Positions 27,020 to 36,544 of a DNA stretch of 36,868 nt are shown here, piece after piece. Location: assembly GCA_017458225.1 (NCBI GenBank), contig JAFTFX010000010.1, positions 1 through 36,868 on the forward strand, read 5' to 3'. This DNA comes from Prevotella sp. Lineage in GTDB: Bacteria; Bacteroidota; Bacteroidia; Bacteroidales; Bacteroidaceae. Within the stretch, counting starts at the first letter, position 1. Every line of letters starts with the position of its first letter. The notes beneath the pieces were generated by a model. The model was not told the DNA's origin. It made no database searches and saw only the letters and a program-made list of their open reading frames with translations. The position numbers were made by a program, and so were the translations under genes.

Positions 27020-28207
27020 ATGGAGGCTTTCTTTCGCACACATCGCTATTTGGTAGAGCATGTAAACGCGCCGGTTCGTCGCACCCTGATGGATGAGATT
27101 GATTGGCGTGACCGCATGATCGGCATTAAGGGAACACGTGGGGTGGGGAAGACTACTTTCTTGTTGCAGTATGCACGTGAGCACTTTGACGTTCAGGATA
27201 AACAGTGTCTCTACGTGAACATGAACAACTTCTATTTTCAGGGCCACGGCATTGCTGACTTTGCTGGCGCATTCTACCACAAGGGTGGTCGTGTGCTGCT
27301 CATCGACCAGGTGTTCAAACAGCCCGACTGGAGCAGCGAGCTGCGCAAGTGCTACGATCTTTATCCAGGCTTGAAAATCGTATTTACAGGTTCAAGCGTG
27401 ATGCGACTGAAAGACGAGAACCCTGAGCTGAATGGCATCGTGAAGTCGTACAACCTGCGTGGATTCTCCTTCCGCGAATTTCTGAACCTGCTGACAGGAA
27501 ATCACTTCCGTCCTTACTCGCTCGAAGAAATTCTTAGCGACCATGAGCGCATCATCAAGCAGATTCTTCCACTTGTATCTCCCCGTCGCTATTTTCAGGA
27601 CTATATTCATCACGGCTTCTACCCCTTCTTCCAAGAAGACCGCAACTATAGCGAGAACCTGCTGAAGACGATGAACATGATGACCGAGGTAGACATTCTG
27701 CTCATCAAGCAGATTGAGCTAAAGTATCTGACAAAGATAAAGAAACTGTTCTACCAGTTGGCTGAACAGGGCGCAAAGGCTCCGAATGTGTCGAAACTTG
27801 CTGCCGACATCGAAACCAGTCGTGCTACGGTCATGAACTACATCAAGTATCTCACCGATGCCCGTCTGCTCAATATGATCTATCCCGTGGGAGAGGACTT
27901 TCCGAAGAAACCTACGAAGGTGATGGCCCACAACTCGAACTTGCTCTACGCCATCTATCCTATCCACGTAGACAAGCAGGAGGCCATGGAGACGTTCTTC
28001 GTCAACTCGCTGTGGAAAGACCATAAGGTCAACCAGTCGGGCCGCGACAACTTCTACTTGGTAGATGAAAAGTTGAAGTTCCGCATCTGCGATGCCGATG
28101 CTCCTAATAAGATAAGGTATGCGCCAGACACCATCTATGCGCGATACAATACTGAAATCGGTAAGGACAACCAGATTCCCCTGTGGCTGCTGGGATTCCT
28201 GTACTAA
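27020..28207 (+). CDS. AAA ATPase with DUF4143-like C-terminus
   Basis: 395 residues. Walker A is GTRGVGKTT (residues 39-47). The Walker B strand is RVLLIDQV, where the family has IDE, so the catalytic Glu is Gln. Arg/sensor features: FTGSSVMRLKDENPEL and LRGFSFREFLNL (GLSFREFL-like). A winged-helix-like region follows (APNVSKLAADIETSRATVMNYIKYLTDARLL), then an end that resembles the PD-(D/E)XK-like DUF4143 fold (METFFVNSLW, VNQSGRDNFYLVDEKLKFRI). The role of these stand-alone ATPases is not known. ATP binding should persist, but hydrolysis may be weak. Confidence 0.85.
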   Translation: MEAFFRTHRYLVEHVNAPVRRTLMDEIDWRDRMIGIKGTRGVGKTTFLLQYAREHFDVQDKQCLYVNMNNFYFQGHGIADFAGAFYHKGGRVLLIDQVFKQPDWSSELRKCYDLYPGLKIVFTGSSVMRLKDENPELNGIVKSYNLRGFSFREFLNLLTGNHFRPYSLEEILSDHERIIKQILPLVSPRRYFQDYIHHGFYPFFQEDRNYSENLLKTMNMMTEVDILLIKQIELKYLTKIKKLFYQLAEQGAKAPNVSKLAADIETSRATVMNYIKYLTDARLLNMIYPVGEDFPKKPTKVMAHNSNLLYAIYPIHVDKQEAMETFFVNSLWKDHKVNQSGRDNFYLVDEKLKFRICDADAPNKIRYAPDTIYARYNTEIGKDNQIPLWLLGFLY

Positions 28208-28219
28208 AAACAAAAGGAT

Positions 28220-28480
28220 ATGACGCAACTATCGAAGGATGAGCATCAGGCAATGATGGCTGACATGCAGGCATTTGATGAGCAGATGCCCTGTGTCGGT
28301 ATATTCTGGTATGACCCTGCCGAGAAGGTTCTCTTCGGTGTGCGCAAGCAGGAACTGACGCCAAAGATGACTACGGAGGCAGCGGAAAAGGGATTGCTCT
28401 TCACAACTACCAAAACTGCATCGGCAGGTATGGGCCAAAGAGCATTTCCAGGCAGAGGCTGGTCGGGGGACATGAAATGA
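28220..28480 (+). pseudogene. Small conserved hypothetical gene, probably frameshifted and truncated
   Basis: The open frame gives 86 residues. Residues 1-60 (CVGIFWYDPAEKVLFGV, LTPKMTTEAAEKGL) look like the start of a Bacteroidota small-protein family that I know as longer, about 130 residues (from memory). From 28407 the +1 frame reads LPKLHRQVWAKEHFQAEAG, which looks like the natural continuation, while the annotated frame turns into low-complexity residues. Near the end, the original frame again gives a plausible RGWSGDMK before the stop. The simplest reading is a frameshift near 28400 plus a loss of the 3' part. A ribosome site AAAGGA precedes the ATG. The stop overlaps the start of the kinase gene (ATGA). 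Confidence 0.5.
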
Positions 28481-29700
28481 AAGCCATAATGGGCACTTCT
28501 TCCTCTGAATCCTTTTTCACCACGGGCGATGCCGATGCCTCTGCCTGCTTCAGTGAACTTACGCCGATAGCTTCGCACGGCTATAGCGAGTTGGTGAAGG
28601 CCAAGCGCTATGGCCGCTGGTGGTTGCTGAAGGGGCTGAAGGAGGCATACCGCGACGACGGCATCTACCAGGCGCTGCTGAAGAAGGAATACGACATACT
28701 CTGCCAGATGCAGCACCCCATGGTGGTGGCCGCCTTCTCCTTCGAGGAGGTGGCGGGACTGGGCCGTTGCATCGTGATGGAATGGATAGAGGGGCAGACG
28801 CTGAAAGAGTGGCTGAAGCTGCCTCACCCACGGAGCGAGCGCAGACGCATGGCCGACATGCTGATGGAAGCCCTCGACTATGTGCACTGCCAGCAGACGG
28901 AACACCGTGACCTGAAACCCTCGAACGTCATGGTGTCGGGCCGTTTCATCAAGCTCATCGACTTCGGCCTCAGCGACACGCACAGCCATGCCATCCTGAA
29001 AGCCGACTGCGGCACTGAGGGATACAGGGCGCCCGACGGCCCCTCTGACATCTATTCACTGGGTGTCATCCTCAGCGAGTTGCGTCTGGGCGTGTTCTCG
29101 CGCTCCGCCATCCGCCGTTGTCTGGCACCGAGAGAACACCGGTGGCGCAACGTATCGGAACTGCAGAAAGCCCTGCACCGCAGCTGGAGGTGGCCCCGCC
29201 TGGCAGCGTTCTTTTTCTTGACAGCCTGTCTGCTGGCAGTCGTCATTGCGGGCTCCCTCCACTACACCACACGCCGCACGCAAAACCAGATGCAAACCAT
29301 GGAGGCCACGCTCACCGATTCGCTGCGCTCCACACGAGTCGCCAGCGAACAGACCGCCGACTCGCTGCAACAGCGCATTGCCGAACTGGAGGCCCTGCAA
29401 AACGCGCAAGAGCTGCAAGAACAACAGCGTCAAGCCATGATTACTCGTATTCAGAAAAGCATTGACAGGGAAGTAAGGAAGTGCGGAATAGTGAATGTGC
29501 TCGAAACGGCTGGCACACGAATGGCAGTCGGTATCCGTCTGGCGCAAGCAGAACAAAGGTTACAACAGCACATAGAGCAGCAAGTAAGTCAACTGGCCCC
29601 TTCAGACCGCTTTTCAGTCATGGTCCAGATGCAGGAATACCTAAAAAGGACCTATACCGACCGTTGGGAGCAGCGTTACAATGCCCTTCCGCTCTATTAA
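28477..29700 (+). CDS. Transmembrane Ser/Thr protein kinase (Hanks type)
   Basis: 407 residues. Kinase domain residues about 28-235: ATP-binding Lys in WWLLKGLKE (K52 or K55), catalytic HRDLKPSN (D145), DFG (162-164), GTEGYRAPD in the place of APE, and DIYSLGVIL. The Gly-rich loop is poor (ASHGYSELV). The domain is shorter than usual, with little between APD and DIYSLG. A single membrane helix (about 241-262) leads to an extracytoplasmic coiled coil (about 265-345), then a helical end. This is a receptor-kinase layout with no PASTA repeats. The gene lies after a broken small gene and the AAA ATPase. The stop codon overlaps the stop of the minus-strand gene at 29697. Substrates are unknown; that gene's product is a candidate, and the PP2C at 18229 is a possible opposing phosphatase. 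Confidence 0.88.
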   Translation: MKAIMGTSSSESFFTTGDADASACFSELTPIASHGYSELVKAKRYGRWWLLKGLKEAYRDDGIYQALLKKEYDILCQMQHPMVVAAFSFEEVAGLGRCIVMEWIEGQTLKEWLKLPHPRSERRRMADMLMEALDYVHCQQTEHRDLKPSNVMVSGRFIKLIDFGLSDTHSHAILKADCGTEGYRAPDGPSDIYSLGVILSELRLGVFSRSAIRRCLAPREHRWRNVSELQKALHRSWRWPRLAAFFFLTACLLAVVIAGSLHYTTRRTQNQMQTMEATLTDSLRSTRVASEQTADSLQQRIAELEALQNAQELQEQQRQAMITRIQKSIDREVRKCGIVNVLETAGTRMAVGIRLAQAEQRLQQHIEQQVSQLAPSDRFSVMVQMQEYLKRTYTDRWEQRYNALPLY

Positions 29701-30251
29701 AGCACTTCTACCACAACCCCATTCCGCTGTCCAGCTATATAGGCCGTTCGGGGCATGCCCTGATGCTGCAAGTCGTCTAAGTAGAGCGGCTCGTGCTGTA
29801 TCATCAGGTGGCAGCGGAACGTGTCGCCCACGCATAACTTCGTGTTCGCAGCCTCAACAACTTCAAACCGGCTGCCACCCAAGTGGCGCACCACCATCTG
29901 ACGGTCTGGCCTCCATGTGATGACCAGCCGCTGCCCCAGCCGCATCTGCTCGGTAGTGATGCGCTGCTCGGTGCTGATGCCGCTCTGCACTTCACCCAAG
30001 CTGCCGACATGGGCGCAAAAGTCCTCATAGCCCCTATAGCCCACAAAGCGCGACAGCACGTCGAGTGTATGTCGCCGCGTGGCCACCTTCTCACGGCTCA
30101 GATAGCCCCACAGCCGTTTCAGCGTGGTGGGTGACAGTCGCTCGCGCGTGTGTAATAATAATAGGTGGGCCAGCCGCTCAAAGTCGCCGGCCTCCGTCAG
30201 CCTACAACCCATGACGCGCTCCACCTCCTGCATCAACAATTCCTGTTCCAT
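29697..30251 (-). CDS. Putative Bacteroidota-specific regulator, convergent with the Ser/Thr kinase
   Basis: 184 residues. Residues about 10-80 carry a helical motif LSPTTLKRLWGYL...TRRHTLDVLSRFVGYRGYEDFC, which I recognise as common in Bacteroidota proteins of unknown role and which resembles a helix-turn-helix. Residues about 100-184 look like a small beta domain (LGQRLVITWRPDRQMVVRHLGGSRFEVV). There is no signal peptide. The gene ends tail-to-tail with the kinase gene, sharing four bases. DNA binding is inferred only from the N-terminal helix pattern. The start codon lies about where transcription should begin, so the mRNA may be leaderless or translation may start at M7 (30233). Confidence 0.65.
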   Translation of the reverse strand: MEQELLMQEVERVMGCRLTEAGDFERLAHLLLLHTRERLSPTTLKRLWGYLSREKVATRRHTLDVLSRFVGYRGYEDFCAHVGSLGEVQSGISTEQRITTEQMRLGQRLVITWRPDRQMVVRHLGGSRFEVVEAANTKLCVGDTFRCHLMIQHEPLYLDDLQHQGMPRTAYIAGQRNGVVVEVL

Positions 30252-30255
30252 GCCG

Positions 30256-30263
30256 CAAAGTTA
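30256..30263 (-). promoter_or_regulatory. -7 element (TAACTTTG on the minus strand), leaderless candidate
   Basis: TAACTTTG on the minus strand is only five bases from the ATG (30251-30249). With the usual spacing, transcription would start at or within the start codon. A weak -33 (CTTG, 30287-30284) sits 20 bp away. Confidence 0.55.
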
Positions 30264-30401
30264 CTGCTTTTTTCGCATTTCAGCAAGTACCAAGGCGAAA
30301 AGGACAAGAAAGGACTTGCCCATAAACTCCTTTCTGCCTATTTTTGCCGACAAAAAGCGAAAAAATCGGCTCACAATGATGCGTCTTTCGAAAAAAATGC
30401 T

Positions 30402-30409
30402 TATCTTTG
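30402..30409 (+). promoter_or_regulatory. -7 element (TATCTTTG) for the structured leader / RiPP operon
   Basis: TATCTTTG should give a start near 30416, about 290 nt before the first ORF at 30709. No other TANNTTTG occurs between this box and 30709, so the leader RNA and the operon probably share it. The -33 box is not clear. Confidence 0.6.
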
Positions 30410-30433
30410 TGCCGCCGTTCTATAAAGAGCGGC

Positions 30434-30645
30434 GACATCGAGGAGAGCGACTAAGCTTTGACCCGTCTGAGAACCTGGAAAATTCGAAGTATAAGGGTGA
30501 GAAGTCTGAAAGCTGCTTCTCCTGCAGTAGCATATATACTGCCTGCTCCCCCTGTGTGGAGTCGGCTCACATATATCCCTGCAGGTGTGAGCTGATTTCA
30601 TTCTTACTTATACGGGTATTCCAGGACCTTCAGACTAAGGATGTC
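30434..30645 (+). ncRNA. Structured RNA (long rod with internal hairpins), 6S-like or leader element
   Basis: Ends pair over long range: GACATC (30434-30439) with GATGTC (30640-30645); GTCTGA (30465-30470) with TCAGAC (30630-30635); CCTGGAA (30474-30480) with TTCCAGG (30619-30625); GTATAA plus GTGAGAA (30489-30503) with TTCTTAC plus TTATAC (30601-30613). Inside are GCAGTA/TACTGC (30524-30542), CTCC/GGAG (30546-30561) and GCTCACA/TGTGAGC (30565-30592). Six consecutive helices in 210 nt, with a promoter in front and no ORF, strongly suggest an RNA gene or leader element. Closing stem, asymmetric internal loops and length (~210-230 nt) recall 6S RNA, but the multi-hairpin centre is not typical. 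No terminator follows before the gene at 30709. Besides this RNA, the 30252-30708 gap holds only the two promoters. Confidence 0.7.
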
Positions 30646-30651
30646 GAGGAG

Positions 30652-30669
30652 GCTCACACTCTTTGTGTG
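30652..30669 (+). promoter_or_regulatory. Alternative-pairing segment downstream of the structured RNA
   Basis: GCTCACAC (30652-30659) is perfectly complementary to GTGTGAGC (30585-30592), which can instead pair with GCTCACA at 30565-30571. CACAC (30655-30659) can also form a local hairpin with GTGTG (30665-30669). These helices exclude one another, as in an RNA switch or attenuator. Confidence 0.5.
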
Positions 30670-30708
30670 CGATTGAAAACCTAGAATACTAATCTTAAAA
30701 AAATAATT

Positions 30709-31878
30709 ATGGGACTATTCAAAAAACTATTTGGAGGTGTTACCGAAGACTTCAAAAAGTCTATGGGTGAAAGTCTGGCTGAAGTGAGTCAGAGCATTAA
30801 GGAAGTCTTCGAAGAATCGGCATCTACAAGTGCAGGAGATGCTGGTGGAGCAGATGATAGCGACGTAAAGATTCCTATCGGAGAATTGAAAGACGGCGTA
30901 TTAACCATACGCGAGGGGATAACGAAACTCGACGAAGAAAGTCTGGAGGGTTATAAGAACCTACGAAAAATCGTATTCCCCGAAAGTCTGGAGGAACTGG
31001 ACGAATATGTGATTAGTAAGCAGAAGCAACTTGAAGAACTTGACTTCTCTCGTGTTACAAAACTGAAGGTGATTCCCGATAATTTTATTGAAGGGGAAAC
31101 TCGGTTGAAAGAAGTTGTATTCCCTCAAGGCGTAGAATCAATCGGCGACGAAATACTTGGCTCATCGAAGACCATCAAGGAAGTGTATATTCCTAGTTCC
31201 GTGTGCAAGATTGGCTATTTAAGCAATGGGGGCAGAAACAGCATTGATGCATATCTGTTTTCGCCATCTATAAGTGATATTGAGGATTTTAGCGAAACCG
31301 TGAATACTCTTTATGTCTTGCCAGAAAGTTTTAATGAATATGCCGATATGCTGAAAGAAGCAGAAAGTGATGCTCACATTCGGGTAATGCCAGATGACAA
31401 AATAAACTTTTATGACACCATCTCGGCAAGACAAGTTCCTTCACCAAGCAAAGCTTCTGCCAAAAACAGCATTACCAGCAAAAACAATACCATCGGAAAG
31501 GAAGAAGAGGAAATTGCCGGGAAATTGTGGTGGGTAAAAGACCTGGTGCTCCTTTATAATGGCAGTAAATATGCGCTGAAATATGGTAGTGGCAAGGACA
31601 CAAAGGTGACAGGATATGTTTATGATGATGTAGAACTCTTAAATGAATATCAAGCCCGCTTAACCCAAAAGCAACCTGACGGCACTTTGAGGTATGGCGT
31701 TGCTTCTACCTGCGGTTGGAAATTCATCGTAGCAAATTGTGAATACACAAAGATTACATTCCTTGACGGAATTGGGGCCATTCTTGCCGTTGATGAAGAT
31801 GGCGATGAATATGCTATAGATAGATGGGGACAAACATATAGTTTAGAAGCATATACTGAAAAGGCACAAGAAAATTGA
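30709..31878 (+). CDS. Leucine-rich-repeat protein with C-terminal WG-like domain
   Basis: 389 residues with no signal peptide. Residues 1-45 form an amphipathic, Lys-rich start (MGLFKKLFGGVTEDFKKSMGESL) suited to membrane-surface contact. Residues about 60-220 are BspA-type LRR_5 repeats (LTIREGITKLDEESLEGYKNL, KIVFPESLEELDEYVI, LKEVVFPQGVESIGDEIL, IKEVYIPSSVCKIGYL). A linker (about 235-265) leads to a ~110-residue C-terminal domain (KYALKYG, TGYVYDDVELLNEY, AIDRWGQTYSLEAY) shared with the next protein. Unlike surface BspA proteins, this one appears cytoplasmic. It is the first ORF of a tightly packed eight-gene unit that contains a RiPP cluster. The sequence is more AT-rich than the kinase and hydrolase regions. 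Function unknown. Confidence 0.78.
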   Translation: MGLFKKLFGGVTEDFKKSMGESLAEVSQSIKEVFEESASTSAGDAGGADDSDVKIPIGELKDGVLTIREGITKLDEESLEGYKNLRKIVFPESLEELDEYVISKQKQLEELDFSRVTKLKVIPDNFIEGETRLKEVVFPQGVESIGDEILGSSKTIKEVYIPSSVCKIGYLSNGGRNSIDAYLFSPSISDIEDFSETVNTLYVLPESFNEYADMLKEAESDAHIRVMPDDKINFYDTISARQVPSPSKASAKNSITSKNNTIGKEEEEIAGKLWWVKDLVLLYNGSKYALKYGSGKDTKVTGYVYDDVELLNEYQARLTQKQPDGTLRYGVASTCGWKFIVANCEYTKITFLDGIGAILAVDEDGDEYAIDRWGQTYSLEAYTEKAQEN

Positions 31879-31913
31879 GAATAAATATAGAGTTTATTAA
31901 AAAATATTATTCT

Positions 31914-32273
31914 ATGGAACTTATTATTGGTATAATCCATGACAGCTTGTCTTTTGAACAGAACGAAGAAGGTAAGTATGATATCATGATTACTCATGAC
32001 AAGAAACAATATAGGACGGGGTTTGTTTATGACTCCATCAAGTTGCTCAATGAATTCCAGCTTCGCGTCAGCCAGACAGATTCTGAGGGGAATAGAAAAT
32101 TTGGCATGATTGCTATCACTGCACACGAAATTGTCCTGCCCTGTTGGTTTGACAAAATCAAGCCTTATGAAGGGACTGTAGCGCAGGCTTTTATAGGTGA
32201 TGAAGAATATCGTATAGACCGTTTCGGGCAAGTGTATAGTCTCAAATTTTGGAAAATTCGTCATCAACAATGA
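31914..32273 (+). CDS. Paralogue of the C-terminal WG-like domain of the preceding protein
   Basis: 119 residues from the ATG at 31914; a TTG at 31875 would add 13 residues. It aligns along its length with the end of the LRR protein (TGFVYDSIKLLNEFQLRVSQ with TGYVYDDVELLNEYQARLTQ; YRIDRFGQVYSL with YAIDRWGQTYSL), which indicates tandem domain duplication. The pattern of a Gly-aromatic turn followed by an acid and the closing DRFGQ resembles WG (KWG) repeats. There is no signal peptide or catalytic motif. The next gene starts on its stop codon (ATGA). Confidence 0.75.
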   Translation: MELIIGIIHDSLSFEQNEEGKYDIMITHDKKQYRTGFVYDSIKLLNEFQLRVSQTDSEGNRKFGMIAITAHEIVLPCWFDKIKPYEGTVAQAFIGDEEYRIDRFGQVYSLKFWKIRHQQ

Positions 32274-32881
32274 ATCTCTATAAATATAAAAGCCTTTCAC
32301 GTTTCGACTATTTTTTAGATTTGCTGATAAAGAAACGTCTTCATGGGGCAACGTTTACTGAGCTAAACGACCCTATGGAGGGCTATTTCGTATCAGAGAA
32401 CTTCACAGAAACAGAATGGGAGCAGATGAAGCAAACCAAAAAGCAAGTGCGGATATGCTCGCTTTCAAGGAACTATAACAATGCGCTGATGTGGGCACAC
32501 TATGCCGACGAGCACAAGGGTTGCTGTATAGAACTGGAAGTTCCTGATTCCACATGGATTCACTTAGATGTCCAGTACAAGCCGCTTATGCCCAAATTGA
32601 TTTCAGGAATAGACAGGGAAGAAGCCGTAAGAACCATTTTTGGCTGTAAATCAGACTTCTGGAGCTACGAAGACGAAGTTCGCTTTATTAAGATAGTTCC
32701 AACGTCTAAGGATGGAAAGCCATATAAAGCCGACTTGCCCATCCGCATCAAGAAGATATACTTAGGCGTTAGAGTTGCGAATGAAGACAAGGAAAGAATA
32801 GAGCGTGTCGTTAATGCGTTAGACTATCAAATTGCAGTAGAAAAATTAAAACGCAATGAGATTATTTTCTGGAGGGGCTGA
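32270..32881 (+). CDS. DUF2971-family protein
   Basis: 203 residues from the ATG at 32270, which overlaps the previous stop; a longer reading from 32249 adds seven residues but is less likely. Family marks: NLYKYKSLS at the start, TELNDPMEGYF, RICSLSRNYNNALMWAHYADEHKGCCIELEV and FWSYEDEVRFIK. DUF2971 proteins are common in defence and mobile regions and have no established function. The conserved His/Tyr/Asp pattern suggests an enzyme. It is translationally coupled inside the RiPP operon. Confidence 0.88.
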   Translation: MNLYKYKSLSRFDYFLDLLIKKRLHGATFTELNDPMEGYFVSENFTETEWEQMKQTKKQVRICSLSRNYNNALMWAHYADEHKGCCIELEVPDSTWIHLDVQYKPLMPKLISGIDREEAVRTIFGCKSDFWSYEDEVRFIKIVPTSKDGKPYKADLPIRIKKIYLGVRVANEDKERIERVVNALDYQIAVEKLKRNEIIFWRG

Positions 32882-32882
32882 T

Positions 32883-33035
32883 ATGGAACTGGACGGTAAG
32901 GTAACCCGAAAATGCAGATATCGTGACTCCTTTGCGTTTCCCGACACTGCCGATTGTGTTGATATAATTAACGGATGCCTGAAGAAATACTTAAATAAGG
33001 AAGAAGCCGAAAATCCTTTAAAGAGTAGGCACTAA
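32883..33035 (+). CDS. Small ORF of 50 residues in the RiPP operon
   Basis: Starts one base after the DUF2971 stop codon and ends 19 bases before the RiPP precursor. Composition is mixed, with Cys at 11, 25 and 32 and a charged C-terminus (KKYLNKEEAENPLKSRH). There is no signal peptide or membrane helix. Codon flow and the tight spacing support it as a real gene; the function is unknown. Confidence 0.5.
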   Translation: MELDGKVTRKCRYRDSFAFPDTADCVDIINGCLKKYLNKEEAENPLKSRH

Positions 33036-33054
33036 TTAAATAACAATTACAATT

Positions 33055-33207
33055 ATGAAAAAGTATGCAAAGCCTCAGATGATGGCAAAGAATGCTCCTA
33101 CTGGTTCGTATGCAGCTGGATGCCCTGCTAAAGGCACTGGTGGCATGTGGGGTTCTGGTGGAACTATTTGGCACTCTGCTTGCAAAAACTGTGAGCGTGC
33201 TAAGTAA
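33055..33207 (+). CDS. RiPP precursor peptide, Gly/Cys-rich
   Basis: 50 residues, too short for most gene finders. Leader-like start MKKYAKPQMMAKNAPTGS is followed by a core rich in Gly and aromatics: AAGCPAKGTGGMWGSGGT, then IWHSACKNCERAK, with Cys at 23, 43 and 46. It lies directly before a radical SAM/SPASM maturase with a recognition domain, which is the standard arrangement for a ribosomally made, post-translationally modified peptide. From memory, it looks like the rSAM-modified Cys-rich precursors described in Bacteroidota annotations, but I cannot confirm the family. Likely modifications are thioether or other radical crosslinks at Cys or at the Trp/Gly stretch. The leader start (MKKYxKP) also resembles that of the small LSRGG peptide at 11926. 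No transporter is seen nearby. Confidence 0.82.
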   Translation: MKKYAKPQMMAKNAPTGSYAAGCPAKGTGGMWGSGGTIWHSACKNCERAK

Positions 33208-33214
33208 TTAACAT

Positions 33215-33246
33215 TGAGGGTGTACCTCACCGTTGGTACGCCCTCA
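33215..33246 (+). terminator. Attenuator-like hairpin between precursor and maturase
   Basis: TGAGGG-T-GTACC / GGTAC-G-CCCTCA with an 8-nt loop fills most of the 54 bp between the precursor stop and the maturase ATG. A loose T-rich stretch (TTCATTTTC) follows. It probably reduces read-through, so more precursor than maturase is made. Confidence 0.7.
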
Positions 33247-33261
33247 TTCATTTTCTTCATT

Positions 33262-34734
33262 ATGTTAGTAAGACAAAGTAAGAATAGCTTTATAAGGCTT
33301 TATGATAATGGTAAACTGGGGTATATCAACAACCAGTTGACTAAATATGACAGGATGTATGATGAAAATGGAGCCATTTTCCTTTCACAGATTTCACGTA
33401 CTCCCAAATCAATTAATGAAATATTGGATGAGCTATCTAAAATCTATCCAGACGTTGATAGACATCTCCTTACAGAAGACTTTTTAGACTTCGTAACTGA
33501 TTTGGCAGAACAGTTGTTTTTAGTCATTGGCCATAGTGTCGAAGAGCTTGATGAAAAAGACTTATCATTTAGTTACTCTTTACAGAACCCCAAAACGCTC
33601 ACAGACTATTTCCCTCAAAAAACAAAGAATAAAGTCAATAGAGATACGGAAGAGTATCTTCTGCACCATGACCAAGATAAACCCAGATTGGGGAACTTGC
33701 AATTTGAACTGACAAGTAGATGTAATGAAAGGTGCATCCATTGCTATATTCCCAATGGAAAGAAAAATACGGGTTTTGACATGTCGTTTGAGAAATTCAA
33801 ATACATCCTTGATCAGTATGTTGACATGGGCGGACTTTGTGTAACGCTATCTGGCGGCGAAGCCTTAATGAATAAAGACATACTTGATATTCTGAGATAT
33901 TGTCGTATAAAAGACTTACAAATCTCTTTGCTAACCAATCTGATTTCTTTGAAAGAAGAACAAATACCAATACTTAAAGAAGTAAATCTTTCGATTATCC
34001 AAGTATCTCTTTATAGTATGAATCCTGAAATACACGATGCAATAACAACAGTGCGCGGGTCGTTTGGAAAAACAAAGGCAGCAATAGAAAAACTGTTCGC
34101 AGCAGACATCCCGGTTCAAATATCATGTCCAGTGATGAAAGCCAACAAAGATGGCTATGGTGAAGTGATGAAATATGCACAGAGTATGCGAATGAAAGCC
34201 CAAACAGATTATATTATGATGGCTCAGGCTGATTTGGATACATCGAACTTGGCCAATCGCATTTCACTTGAAGAAACTGGTAAGGTGATTCGCGATATCA
34301 TGGAGTTAGATGTTGATTACCAAACAGAAACATTGACTCAAGAACCTTTGTCAAGTATTTCAGAAGAAGAATTTGCAGAGATGCCTCTGTGTGGTGCTGG
34401 TTTGAATGATTTATGTGTTACTGTTAATGGAGACATTTATCCATGCTCCGGCTGGCAGGATTTTGTTGTTGGTAATGTCTTTAAGGACTCTCTACAATCC
34501 ATTTGGGAAGATTCTCTCAAACTGAAGCAGATTCGTAACATTAAGCAAAAGGACTTTCCTAAGTGCCTAAATTGTGAAGCCAGGGATTTCTGTAACATGT
34601 GTCTTGTCAGGAATTATAATGAGAGCAATGGGGACATGTTCAAGATTAATGAGCATTTCTGTAAAGTGGCTTTTCTGAATAAGAGCATTGCAGAAGAGTG
34701 GCTACAATCTCATAAAAAAGATAAAGGCTCATGA
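33262..34734 (+). CDS. Radical SAM / SPASM peptide maturase
   Basis: 490 residues from the ATG at 33262. A reading from 33214 would begin inside the attenuator hairpin and add a non-family stretch. Residues about 1-95 (SFIRLYDNGKLGYI, PKSINEILDELSKIYP, LTEDFLDFV) look like a PqqD-type RiPP recognition element. The radical SAM core has CNERCIHC (C154, C158, C161) for the first 4Fe-4S cluster and TLSGGEALMN for SAM binding. The SPASM part (about 375-480) has LCGAGLNDLCV, YPCSGWQ, CLNCEARDFCNMC and a final HFCKVA for auxiliary clusters. It should modify the 50-residue peptide encoded upstream. The stop overlaps the next start (ATGA). Confidence 0.93.
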   Translation: MLVRQSKNSFIRLYDNGKLGYINNQLTKYDRMYDENGAIFLSQISRTPKSINEILDELSKIYPDVDRHLLTEDFLDFVTDLAEQLFLVIGHSVEELDEKDLSFSYSLQNPKTLTDYFPQKTKNKVNRDTEEYLLHHDQDKPRLGNLQFELTSRCNERCIHCYIPNGKKNTGFDMSFEKFKYILDQYVDMGGLCVTLSGGEALMNKDILDILRYCRIKDLQISLLTNLISLKEEQIPILKEVNLSIIQVSLYSMNPEIHDAITTVRGSFGKTKAAIEKLFAADIPVQISCPVMKANKDGYGEVMKYAQSMRMKAQTDYIMMAQADLDTSNLANRISLEETGKVIRDIMELDVDYQTETLTQEPLSSISEEEFAEMPLCGAGLNDLCVTVNGDIYPCSGWQDFVVGNVFKDSLQSIWEDSLKLKQIRNIKQKDFPKCLNCEARDFCNMCLVRNYNESNGDMFKINEHFCKVAFLNKSIAEEWLQSHKKDKGS

Positions 34735-35462
34735 CCGATAACCACGTACATATAGGTTGGTATACAAATGGCTATCATACGCCAGAGGAGGTGTGGCAAG
34801 CAGCAAGAGCGGCAGGAATTGACGAGATTGTTGTTTCCAGTACGTCTACGTGTGCTGAATTATATAAGCTGGTGGTTCGGGAATTTCAAGAACTCATCAG
34901 GATGGGAGGCCCGCGAGTTCATCCCATACTCTGGCTGACCCCACGGATGATGAAGACTTGGGGCATTCGCTATATGCTCCACTCCAAGATACGATGGCAG
35001 GGCGTGAAGATGCACTGGGAAGCGCACCATGAGTGGTACTATAACAGGAAATTGACAGCTAAGGCATTGGATGTTGCGCGAAAGCTCAATGTTCCAGTAC
35101 TGCTACATACAGGGAACTTCAAAAAGTGTCATGCCAATGTGTTCAAACCGTTTTGCTTGGAAAACCCAGACATGACGTTTGTTTTAGCTCATGGGCGTCC
35201 TCTTGACGAAGCAATCGATGTGCTCAAAAATTGTCAAAACGCAATGGTGGATACTGCTTTCATGCCACCTCACGATGTGATGCTGCTTGCAGAAAATGGT
35301 TTTACCGACAGAATCCTGTTTGGCACAGATGCCCCAATAAATCTCCTCTTTTACGAGGATAGGACTACAACGGAATATATTAAGTTCTGTCGGACGGTTT
35401 TACAGAACACTCTACCACAATCGGTATATGAAAGAATCATGTCTAACCAACTATATAAATAA
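34731..35462 (+). CDS. Amidohydrolase-superfamily metal-dependent hydrolase
   Basis: 243 residues, coupled to the maturase by an ATGA overlap. Metal-site marks of the superfamily: DNHVHIG (HxH, residues 4-6) at the N-terminus, VLLHTG, FVLAHGRP and LFGTDAP near the C-terminus, giving the usual His/His/His/Asp set. Closest in feel to the Amidohydro_2 / TatD-type hydrolases. In this place it could cut the leader, deamidate or hydrolyse an imide or amide in the modified peptide, or act on a small co-substrate. This enzyme type is not a standard part of radical SAM RiPP clusters. Confidence 0.87.
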   Translation: MTDNHVHIGWYTNGYHTPEEVWQAARAAGIDEIVVSSTSTCAELYKLVVREFQELIRMGGPRVHPILWLTPRMMKTWGIRYMLHSKIRWQGVKMHWEAHHEWYYNRKLTAKALDVARKLNVPVLLHTGNFKKCHANVFKPFCLENPDMTFVLAHGRPLDEAIDVLKNCQNAMVDTAFMPPHDVMLLAENGFTDRILFGTDAPINLLFYEDRTTTEYIKFCRTVLQNTLPQSVYERIMSNQLYK

Positions 35463-35653
35463 TGGAAATACTCGCAATCATAGGTCTACTTGCCATCATC
35501 GCCATCATCTTCACGGGTGGTGGAATCCTGGGCTGGGGCATCAAGGGACTGGGTACCATCTTCGACTTTTTAGCCGAAGGTTGGAACTCTTGCCTTCGTG
35601 TCGTTTTATGGATTATCGTCATCTTCTTCGTGCTGTTGGCACTGGCACTATGA
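35462..35653 (+). CDS. Small two-helix membrane protein
   Basis: 63 residues; its ATG shares a base with the amidohydrolase stop (TAATG). One helix (about 4-20, ILAIIGLLAIIAIIF) is followed by a Gly-rich turn (TGGGILGWGIKGLG), an amphipathic middle and a second helix (about 44-63, RVVLWIIVIFFVLLALAL). Given its place at the end of the RiPP unit it could be an immunity or export helper. Similar small proteins also occur elsewhere in Prevotella (from memory), so the link is uncertain. Confidence 0.6.
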   Translation: MEILAIIGLLAIIAIIFTGGGILGWGIKGLGTIFDFLAEGWNSCLRVVLWIIVIFFVLLALAL

Positions 35654-35703
35654 TGCTAAGCAGTTAAGTATTCCTTCACTATTATTTAGACACCACAAAA
35701 ACA

Positions 35704-35735
35704 AGCGGAGTTTGCATTATTTTGCAAACTTCGCT
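35704..35735 (+). terminator. Terminator of the RiPP operon
   Basis: AGCG-G-AGTTTGCA / TGCAAACT-T-CGCT makes a 32-nt hairpin. The following TTTG also serves as the -33 box of the next promoter. No long T run follows directly. Confidence 0.6.
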
Positions 35736-35765
35736 TTGCCATTTGCGTTTTTCTTCGTAACTTTG
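35735..35765 (+). promoter_or_regulatory. Promoter of the MNT/HEPN pair
   Basis: TTTG (35735-35738), 19 bp, TAACTTTG (35758-35765) is a complete promoter for the genes at 35823-36544, with a ~50-nt leader. Confidence 0.8.
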
Positions 35766-35822
35766 CACACGTTTTAAAACAAATCATTATTTTTAGGTAT
35801 TTTTTTTCTTTGTCAATATAGT

Positions 35823-36137
35823 ATGGATCGACAACAAGTCATTGAGAATATACGCCAGGTAGGACGTAACACGCTTCCACCGAACAGTTCTTTGCTACTG
35901 TTCGGCTCGCAGGCACGCGGTGATGCTCACAGAGGCTCTGACTGGGATTTGCTCATCCTGCTTGACAAGCCCAGAATTTCACTTGATGACTATGATGTCA
36001 GCTATCCTTTCCGTGAGTTGGGGTGGGATTTAGGCGAGGAGATTAATCCGCAGGTCTATTCGAAGAAAGAATGGGCCAACTACAGTTTTACGCCTTTCTA
36101 CAAAAATGTTGAACAAGACAAAAAAGTATTGCTATGA
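35823..36137 (+). CDS. MNT-type nucleotidyltransferase (antitoxin-like)
   Basis: 104 residues. The minimal nucleotidyltransferase motif is LLLFGSQARGDAHRGSDWDLL (two Asp at 40 and 42 in SDWD). The region that should supply a third acidic residue is not clear. In MNT/HEPN toxin-antitoxin pairs, this partner AMPylates and silences the HEPN toxin. The next gene starts four bases before this stop (ATGA). Confidence 0.87.
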   Translation: MDRQQVIENIRQVGRNTLPPNSSLLLFGSQARGDAHRGSDWDLLILLDKPRISLDDYDVSYPFRELGWDLGEEINPQVYSKKEWANYSFTPFYKNVEQDKKVLL

Positions 36138-36544
36138 GTCTGAATATTGAGGAAAGAAACGTCATAGTCAGGAAGGAACTGGAGCGTGCACATGAAACCT
36201 TCGAGGAAATAGAAGTGATGTGTCAGGCTGGTAAGTGGAATGGTGCTGCCAACCGCATTTACTATGCAGTACTCCATGCTGTCAATGCACTGCTCATCAA
36301 CGATGGTTTTCAGGCTGTCCGTCATCATGGTTCCCATGCCCTGTTTAGCCAGCACTATATAAAGACTGGGAAACTACCTGTAGTGTTTGGACGTTTCTAC
36401 AATAATCTGCAAACATTACGAGAAAAGAGCGATTACAATTGTTTTTATGACGTAGAAGAGGAGGATGTTATCAAAGGAATGGACAAAGCCAAAACATTTA
36501 TTGATACTATAGAGAAATTCATTAACGAAGAAATAACACATTAA
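36134..36544 (+). CDS. HEPN-domain protein (toxin-like partner)
   Basis: 136 residues, all helical, matching the HEPN core (NGAANRIYYAVLHAVNALLI, FQAVRHHGSHALFSQHYI, RFYNNLQTLREKSDYNCF). The R-x4-6-H RNase motif is not present; the fourth helix has LREKSDY instead. Coupled to the nucleotidyltransferase gene. It may be a non-catalytic HEPN of the class that works with MNT proteins rather than a true RNase toxin. Confidence 0.85.
   Translation: MSLNIEERNVIVRKELERAHETFEEIEVMCQAGKWNGAANRIYYAVLHAVNALLINDGFQAVRHHGSHALFSQHYIKTGKLPVVFGRFYNNLQTLREKSDYNCFYDVEEEDVIKGMDKAKTFIDTIEKFINEEITH

Follow-up and report, generated by a model that had tools for sequence, protein, structure and literature searches.

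A putative radical SAM peptide cluster of Prevotella with a coupled amidohydrolase, a hypervariable precursor core, and an upstream DUF805b RNA

The closest described systems to the gene cluster reported here, which lies on a contig of a Prevotella sp. genome, are the CteB-type ranthipeptide and SkfB-type sactipeptide maturases. They share with it a radical S-adenosylmethionine (SAM) core, SPASM clusters, and a cysteine-containing precursor, but fold alignments give only 16-18% identity, the maturase of the cluster stays below the NCBIfam cut-offs, its precursor has no named family, and a dedicated amidohydrolase is present. CteB has a leader-binding domain. A conserved leader joined to a hypervariable core is the pattern of the prochlorosins, and bottromycin is made by a YcaO pathway. 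The cluster belongs to a known kind of system, the radical-SAM ribosomally synthesized and post-translationally modified peptides (RiPPs), and no named NCBIfam or Pfam precursor or maturase family fits it. For the amidohydrolase there is a precedent in PurAH, which removes part of a RiPP according to an excerpt of a published study (PMC10885120), and the bottromycin enzymes PurAH/BotAH resemble ours in being metal-dependent amidohydrolases within a RiPP cluster. Bottromycin has a follower peptide (same excerpt, PMC10885120), whereas in the present cluster the maturase is a radical SAM enzyme and the precursor carries a leader.

The window, meaning the whole stretch of DNA analyzed, is a single contig of 36,868 bases from a genome of 2.24 Mb in 46 contigs that is 74.7% complete. 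Four genes at 33055-35653, running in one direction with tight spacing, encode a precursor, a maturase, a hydrolase, and a two-helix protein. The first three and the RNA element before them are as follows (aa, amino acids; nt, nucleotides).

32997-33031, + strand: DUF805b RNA (Rfam RF02914), a 35-nt hairpin that ends 23 nt before the precursor ATG.
33055-33207, + strand: RiPP precursor, 50 aa, MKKYAKPQMMAKNAPTGSYAAGCPAKGTGGMWGSGGTIWHSACKNCERAK; the leader runs through GSYAAGC(23), and C43 and C46 lie in the core.
33262-34734, + strand: radical SAM/SPASM peptide maturase with an N-terminal PqqD-like domain (RiPP recognition element, RRE), 490 aa; PF04055, PF13186, PF05402.
34731-35462, + strand: amidohydrolase-superfamily hydrolase, 243 aa; 4-nt overlap between its ATG and the maturase stop; PF04909.

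We searched 299 genomes of the genus with the maturase (E ≤1e-60), hydrolase model A2 (E ≤1e-5), and precursor model A3 (E ≤1e-3). The maturase was found in 8 of them. The hydrolase and the precursor shared the same 6 genomes, each at 7 loci and in every case close to the maturase. The other two genomes have more distant maturases, that of G099 (47%) accompanied by a different precursor but by no match to the hydrolase, and that of G225 (35%) lying at a contig end. Among 393 genomes of the order (hydrolase threshold E ≤1e-10), the hydrolase occurred in two, the window's own and G355, in which the maturase lies directly before it. In both sets the hydrolase model was thus found only with the maturase, contrary to the possibility, raised in an earlier note on this DNA, that the enzyme might occur mostly without it.

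In named genomes, 150 maturase loci were confirmed by scanning, and the best 80 were kept for locus counts, with the precursor sought within 6-kb flanks and the hydrolase within 3.5 kb of the maturase. The 80 were mostly labeled Bacteroidota; other labels were Spirochaetes, Fibrobacter, Elusimicrobiota, and single Lachnospiraceae or Alphaproteobacteria, these single ones being perhaps binning errors. The closest maturase on a named contig was that of L053, an uncultured Prevotellaceae bacterium (75% identity). A precursor was present at 72 of the 80 loci, the hydrolase at 64, and both at 63, which supports the RiPP cluster with a coupled hydrolase that the earlier note had proposed and goes against the lack of precursor homologues next to homologous maturases that it had named as a refuting result. 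Such joint conservation of a short precursor gene and a nearby peptide-modifying enzyme is characteristic of RiPP clusters. The farthest precursor was 4,072 nt from the maturase, and the copy in L120 looks cut short. The hydrolase started within 20 nt past the maturase end, or overlapped it, at 39 of the 64 loci.

The presence of the hydrolase was associated with the type of precursor. It was found at 63 of the 67 evaluable loci with a GSYAAGC precursor and at none of the 6 loci assigned by eye to other precursors (L104, L106, L114, and three plasmids described below). The Fisher p-value of 1.2e-6 (1.7e-5 with the borderline L114 moved, and 1e-3 with the plasmids also counted once) is optimistic because all loci are related. 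Standing outside this test were L020 and L105 (contig ends), L094, L095, and L101 (no precursor found), and L108 (hydrolase present, contig start); the 67 evaluable loci also exclude five hydrolase-less precursor loci (L081, L098, L107, L111, and L122) in which the sequence past the maturase is shorter than 1.5 kb. This distribution suggests that the hydrolase goes with GSYAAGC precursors.

The 50-residue precursor with Cys 23, 43, and 46 described in the earlier note does adjoin the maturase, and these three Cys were invariant in an alignment of 48 family members, as were A11, G17, and S18; M1, Y4, N13, Y19, A20, A21, G22, and P24 were present in at least 90%. The stretch from P24 to C43 varied widely in both length and sequence, so that the leader (AKNxPxGSYAAGCP) is fixed in this family, the core hypervariable, and the end of the CxxC type, i.e., the conserved leader and variable core of RiPP clusters. 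The Gly/Trp stretch that had also been pointed out is present in the window and in its relative L053, but it is not a trait of this family with its hypervariable core. No NCBIfam or Pfam model matched the window precursor, and the 48 members gave only single weak matches to these libraries, none of them recurrent. This is a broad putative RiPP family without a name in the libraries searched.

Leader and core were compared at the DNA level among 76 precursors (L120 and L132 had been dropped beforehand). In 159 pairs, overlapping in their members, with leader DNA identity of at least 80%, the leaders were 85% identical on average and the cores 48.4%, compared with 47.9% (standard deviation, 7.1) for 400 random core pairs. 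L102 carries two adjacent precursors with near-identical leaders and different cores; between one of them and the precursor of L066, the 60 nt 5′ of the gene were 100% identical, the leaders 99%, and the cores 51%, with the maturase DNA 95% identical. In L107 and L109, the maturase DNA was 99% identical (98% at four-fold sites) and the core 60%, with matching flanks on either side of the core. There were exceptions, since the cores of the window and L053 were 89% identical and those of L107 and L110 74% at the protein level. These patterns indicate that the core can apparently be replaced rather than worn, with a sharp boundary, between close relatives. Such hypervariability suggests a product under diversifying selection, e.g., an antagonistic or recognition peptide. 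The arrangement resembles that of the prochlorosins, which are handled by one tolerant maturase (PMC10783134); those peptides are lanthipeptides made by ProcM, whereas here a radical SAM maturase is found with one or two precursors per locus.

The start of the maturase was taken as the ATG at 33262, the list of open reading frames (ORFs) having an earlier TTG at 33214. Its Pfam matches were Radical_SAM (89.9 bits), SPASM (46.5 bits), and, at residues 34-84, PqqD (PF05402; 23.4 bits, exactly its cut-off of 23.4). The N-terminus of the predicted structure (predicted local distance difference test [pLDDT] score, 89.5) comprised strands and helices, and we assign a putative leader recognition domain there at a marginal score. 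CNERCIHC is a CX3CX2C motif at C154, C158, and C161, and these were conserved at 1.00 among 84 maturases together with C377, C395, C435, C438, C444, C447, and C467 (C385, 0.94), i.e., the CX3CX2C and auxiliary-cluster Cys of a radical SAM/SPASM enzyme. The CNERCIHC motif, PqqD-like domain, and SPASM clusters of the earlier note were therefore borne out by Pfam and by Cys conservation. The best fold matches by E-value were 5wgg, which we take to be CteB, SkfB (6efn), and SuiB (5v1t), with 5wgg first and SkfB third; by sequence, SkfB came first among solved structures. Among the best 25 of the 76 NCBIfam models matched at E up to 1, the scores stayed below the cut-offs of the curated sactipeptide/ranthipeptide maturases AlbA (104.5 of 850 bits), StsB (77.4 of 625), and SkfB (64.4 of 300) and of the cofactor maturases PqqE (99.3 of 381) and mycofactocin (97.4 of 265).

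The hydrolase matched PF04909 (Amidohydro_2) with 42.4 bits against a cut-off of 26.4. H5, H7, K93, H95, H126, H154, and D200 were conserved at 0.98-1.00 among 66 sequences and were invariant in 40, and H5, H7, K93, H126, H154, and D200 are likely to bind metal, by analogy with the superfamily. The profile match and the HxH, K, H, H, and D ligands thus place it in Amidohydro_2, confirming the amidohydrolase with HxH...H...H...D that had been read after the maturase. Its predicted structure (pLDDT, 97.6) had 3cjp and 4i6k as its best fold matches and as neighbors an uncharacterized amidohydrolase (3cjp) and 2-pyrone-4,6-dicarboxylate hydrolases, with template modeling (TM) scores of 0.66-0.70 by query length. 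No PurAH/BotAH entry was among its PDB sequence matches or the best 50 fold matches, and no direct comparison was made. Maturase and hydrolase distances correlated over 65 loci (r = 0.64; highest of 2,000 permutations, 0.19), as expected from co-inheritance. In viral contigs, 10 stretches matched a single hydrolase pattern, none of which was confirmed.

We consider it probable that these genes form a RiPP operon in which the maturase forms a Cys ring and the hydrolase then trims the peptide. The PqqD-like domain would bind the precursor leader, and the radical SAM/SPASM core would install a ring, most likely a thioether (sactionine or ranthionine), that spans the variable loop and involves at least one of the three Cys. 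Cleavage of the modified peptide by the amidohydrolase would follow, much like that by PurAH in bottromycin assembly; the likeliest sites are the conserved GSYAAG-C(P) junction or its vicinity and the short tail past C46. The DUF805b RNA would most likely set precursor translation apart from that of the enzymes. Leader binding, ring formation, and trimming are suggested by the domains, the conservation, and the bottromycin precedent (excerpt of PMC10885120).

Several observations weigh against this reading. The PqqD score barely reaches its cut-off. SuiB has a higher TM-score (0.57-0.61) than 5wgg (0.53), though it ranks lower by E-value. The maturase reached no NCBIfam cut-off among the best 25 of the 76 models (top, 126.7 versus 500 bits), so its reaction is not readable from a named family. 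The top folds of the hydrolase are 3cjp, 2-pyrone-4,6-dicarboxylate hydrolases, and ACMSD-type enzymes, not peptidases. Four evaluable GSYAAGC loci (L077, L084, L117, and L132) lack the hydrolase, and a Pfam scan of the genes of 27020-36541 found no transporter or protease family.

The alternative that survives best is that the maturase installs a non-thioether change, such as an epimerization, a carbon-carbon or ether crosslink, or another modification. SuiB, which makes a carbon-carbon link, has the highest TM-score among the top-listed peptide maturases, the epimerase EpeE is among the best 50 fold matches, and no named maturase family fits. However, three invariant Cys in a hypervariable core point to Cys chemistry, and 5wgg and SkfB come first and third by E-value, and we regard such a change as possible, at clearly lower probability than a thioether.

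It is less likely still that the amidohydrolase serves in self-protection (immunity) or turnover, degrading the mature peptide inside the producer, with its variable center matching the core. Consistent with this, among 87 pairs (not independent of each other) whose maturases are at least 75% identical, all but L125/L126 (86 of 87) showed lower conservation of the hydrolase than of the maturase. In L066 and L102, whose cores differ, the hydrolase is also a mosaic, with 93% identity over the first 43 residues, 41% over the next 107 (44-150), and 93% over the remainder. However, this is the only clear mosaic, none being seen in three other pairs split likewise, and L109/L110 and L065/L067 have changed the core while keeping the hydrolase at 95% and 90%, respectively. 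Core and hydrolase identity, with maturase identity removed, correlated weakly (r = 0.14; 119 of 2,000 permutations as high). A strict co-change of hydrolase and core was accordingly only weakly supported.

That the hydrolase is an operon passenger with an unrelated substrate appears improbable. Neighboring genes vary between loci, and a distant relative of the hydrolase (26% identity) sits in a sugar-uptake gene group, but the hydrolase is restricted in distribution, occurring in 2 of the 393 order genomes and in each alongside the maturase, and it is associated with the precursor type, both of which speak against this idea. Most improbable of all is a cofactor or redox-carrier precursor trimmed by the hydrolase, in the style of pyrroloquinoline quinone (PQQ) or of mycofactocin, whose MftE is a creatininase-type amidohydrolase: the PqqD-like domain and partial matches to the PqqE and mycofactocin maturase models would fit, but the core is hypervariable here, whereas cofactor precursors have, to our knowledge, a fixed core, and no equivalog maturase model was reached.

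The DUF805b element of the window (49.5 bits; gathering, 35.6; E = 3.5e-13) was its sole Rfam match at gathering and is typed by Rfam as a candidate cis-regulatory RNA. In 32 related elements, the outer three-pair stem had standard pairs in 97.8% of 91 cells, 16 of them double-changed, and a covariation score of 0.56 that none of 500 shuffles reached; slid partners were 14-42% paired. Other measures of the stem were unexceptional, the number of pairs with a double change being as high in 111 of 500 shuffles and that of further pair types in 369 of 500. The score above gathering and the covarying stem together identify the element as DUF805b.

In 23 loci (12 + 11; 280 kb), hand-chosen after the profile search and not random, 22 DUF805b matches passed gathering, all on the cluster strand; the element ended 20-26 nt before the precursor start at 16 of the 23, and seven had none there at gathering. 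In a partly circular test, a profile of the 32 elements was applied to the Bacteroidota set of 55 precursors, where 39 were preceded by a match at E <1e-3 and 45 at E <1, and to 22 other precursors, none of which was. Where the precursor lies 3′ of the maturase (L056, L057, L059, L061, L099, L103, and weakly L089), DUF805b still precedes the precursor. Matches above cut-off occurred in 11 of 40 relatives and in none of 14 control genomes. In relatives, the element precedes quite different genes, e.g., an ATP-grasp-like gene (by eye) in L044, and it is therefore an element of wider use, not restricted to RiPPs. DUF805b is known as a candidate cis-regulatory RNA, and its placement before RiPP precursors was not found in the open-license literature searched. 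In L044, the match is at 1501, and a 79-aa ORF that begins 56 nt past its first base is followed by the ATP-grasp ligase-like gene, an arrangement that looks graspetide-like by eye. Upstream of the precursor in L076, L078, and L088, DUF805b is replaced by a different conserved 5′ sequence, shared by the three, whose arms look complementary by eye.

Two further elements lie upstream; the first of them, like the DUF805b RNA, goes unmentioned in the earlier note.

32883-33035, + strand: small ORF for a possible accessory protein, 50 aa; its end overlaps the DUF805b RNA.
30405-30665, + strand: conserved, apparently structured non-coding stretch (R1), ~260 nt, beginning at the TATCTTTG box; model R1 covers 30517-30664.

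The relatives of the small ORF (P0005) share the Cys pattern C...C..DT..C.D...GC, one of whose four Cys the window copy lacks. It had tblastn matches in L013 and L014 and no Pfam or NCBIfam model at cut-off, and a profile from four such ORFs (window, L053, L054, and L064) found five more at E <1e-4 (L078, L069, L088, L058, and L057), all nine sitting just upstream of the precursor gene. Its AENPLKSR tail was rejected as a case of protein conservation, reflecting largely the underlying DUF805b RNA instead, whereas its Cys-containing front recurs on its own. The R1 stretch had 57 predicted pairs in 11 sequences, 19 of which kept pairing through a change on both sides at least once. It had no Rfam match at gathering, those below gathering being at chance level only, and is possibly a new RNA family. 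Model R1 matched 36 of 120 genus genomes, before varied genes. Of the seven same-genus DUF805b matches over cut-off, five have an R1 copy upstream of them on their contig (G000, G007, G018, and two in G008), and those of G003 and G008:C25 do not; R1 may serve as leader of the transcription unit to which the cluster belongs.

Other features of the neighborhood are as follows.

35462-35653, + strand: small two-helix membrane protein, an uncertain member, 63 aa, with two hydrophobic stretches.
28477-29697, + strand: Hanks-type protein kinase (PF00069); its BLAST cluster spans 26 of 81 RiPP loci.
29700-30251, - strand: ORF on the opposite strand, no family; such an ORF cluster spans 21 of 81 loci, although the selection took an overlapping ORF in place of the window's own.

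The small membrane protein that the earlier note counted in the cluster is encoded in the window and has two homologues in L019, but it does not belong to the cluster consistently: ORFs for small two-helix proteins were found within 1 kb downstream at 11 of 71 loci (window included) versus 4 of 72 upstream. A membrane immunity protein between precursor and maturase was also considered but not supported, as the ORFs listed there are mostly soluble and vary among loci. Neighboring genes differ between loci. Directly after the cluster, at 35823-36541, is a pair of genes for a nucleotidyltransferase and a HEPN protein (PF01909 and PF05168) with the layout of an MNT/HEPN toxin-antitoxin system.

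Sister clusters of a CRPN type are found on conjugative plasmids of Escherichia coli and Photobacterium and, within the genus, in L020. The plasmid maturases are 39-41% identical to ours, and a short upstream precursor with a Y..PT.LA leader is a shared trait; L020 and the plasmids have the core CRPNxxPxGRPCNPPGPxGR in common. No hydrolase was found by profile in the plasmid stretches read or by tblastn in these records. The plasmid precursors (L178, 3746-3862; L179, 3702-3818; L180, 3704-3820) are identical 38-aa peptides ending in CRPNSKPSGRPCNPPGPSGR and sit just past a serine-recombinase-like gene; a similar precursor is at 10296-10421 in L020. Four further records, one from Salmonella, have a sister maturase. 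Another precursor type, with MSWSCAPNxSVATAxRFCK and recognized by eye, stands beside related maturases in L105 (5822-5944) and L106 (4238-4366), with no hydrolase match in either; the L105 contig ends just past the maturase.

A survey of Bacteroidales RiPPs (PMC10352776) mentions neither amidohydrolase nor TatD in its main text. Two long precursor motif strings were absent from the open-license literature matches listed, and that literature yielded no description of a hydrolase, an exchangeable core, and the RNA in combination, though papers beyond it could hold one. We tentatively raise the possibility, itself rather doubtful, of a new class spread over several phyla, with a leader to GSYAAGCP, a tolerant maturase, a dedicated hydrolase, a core replaced as a block, an exchangeable hydrolase center, and a DUF805b element that travels with the precursor, this last trait applying to the Bacteroidota, where most precursor copies have their own element. 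If true, this would offer a possible functional handle on the orphan DUF805b RNA, which, with its role unknown, gains a concrete gene set for functional testing. The sharp-edged core replacement is a clean natural case of targeted peptide diversification, and a leader-directed maturase that seemingly tolerates very different cores would be useful in peptide engineering. The hydrolase might represent a novel kind of RiPP-processing enzyme, in a family that is present in many gut and rumen genomes.

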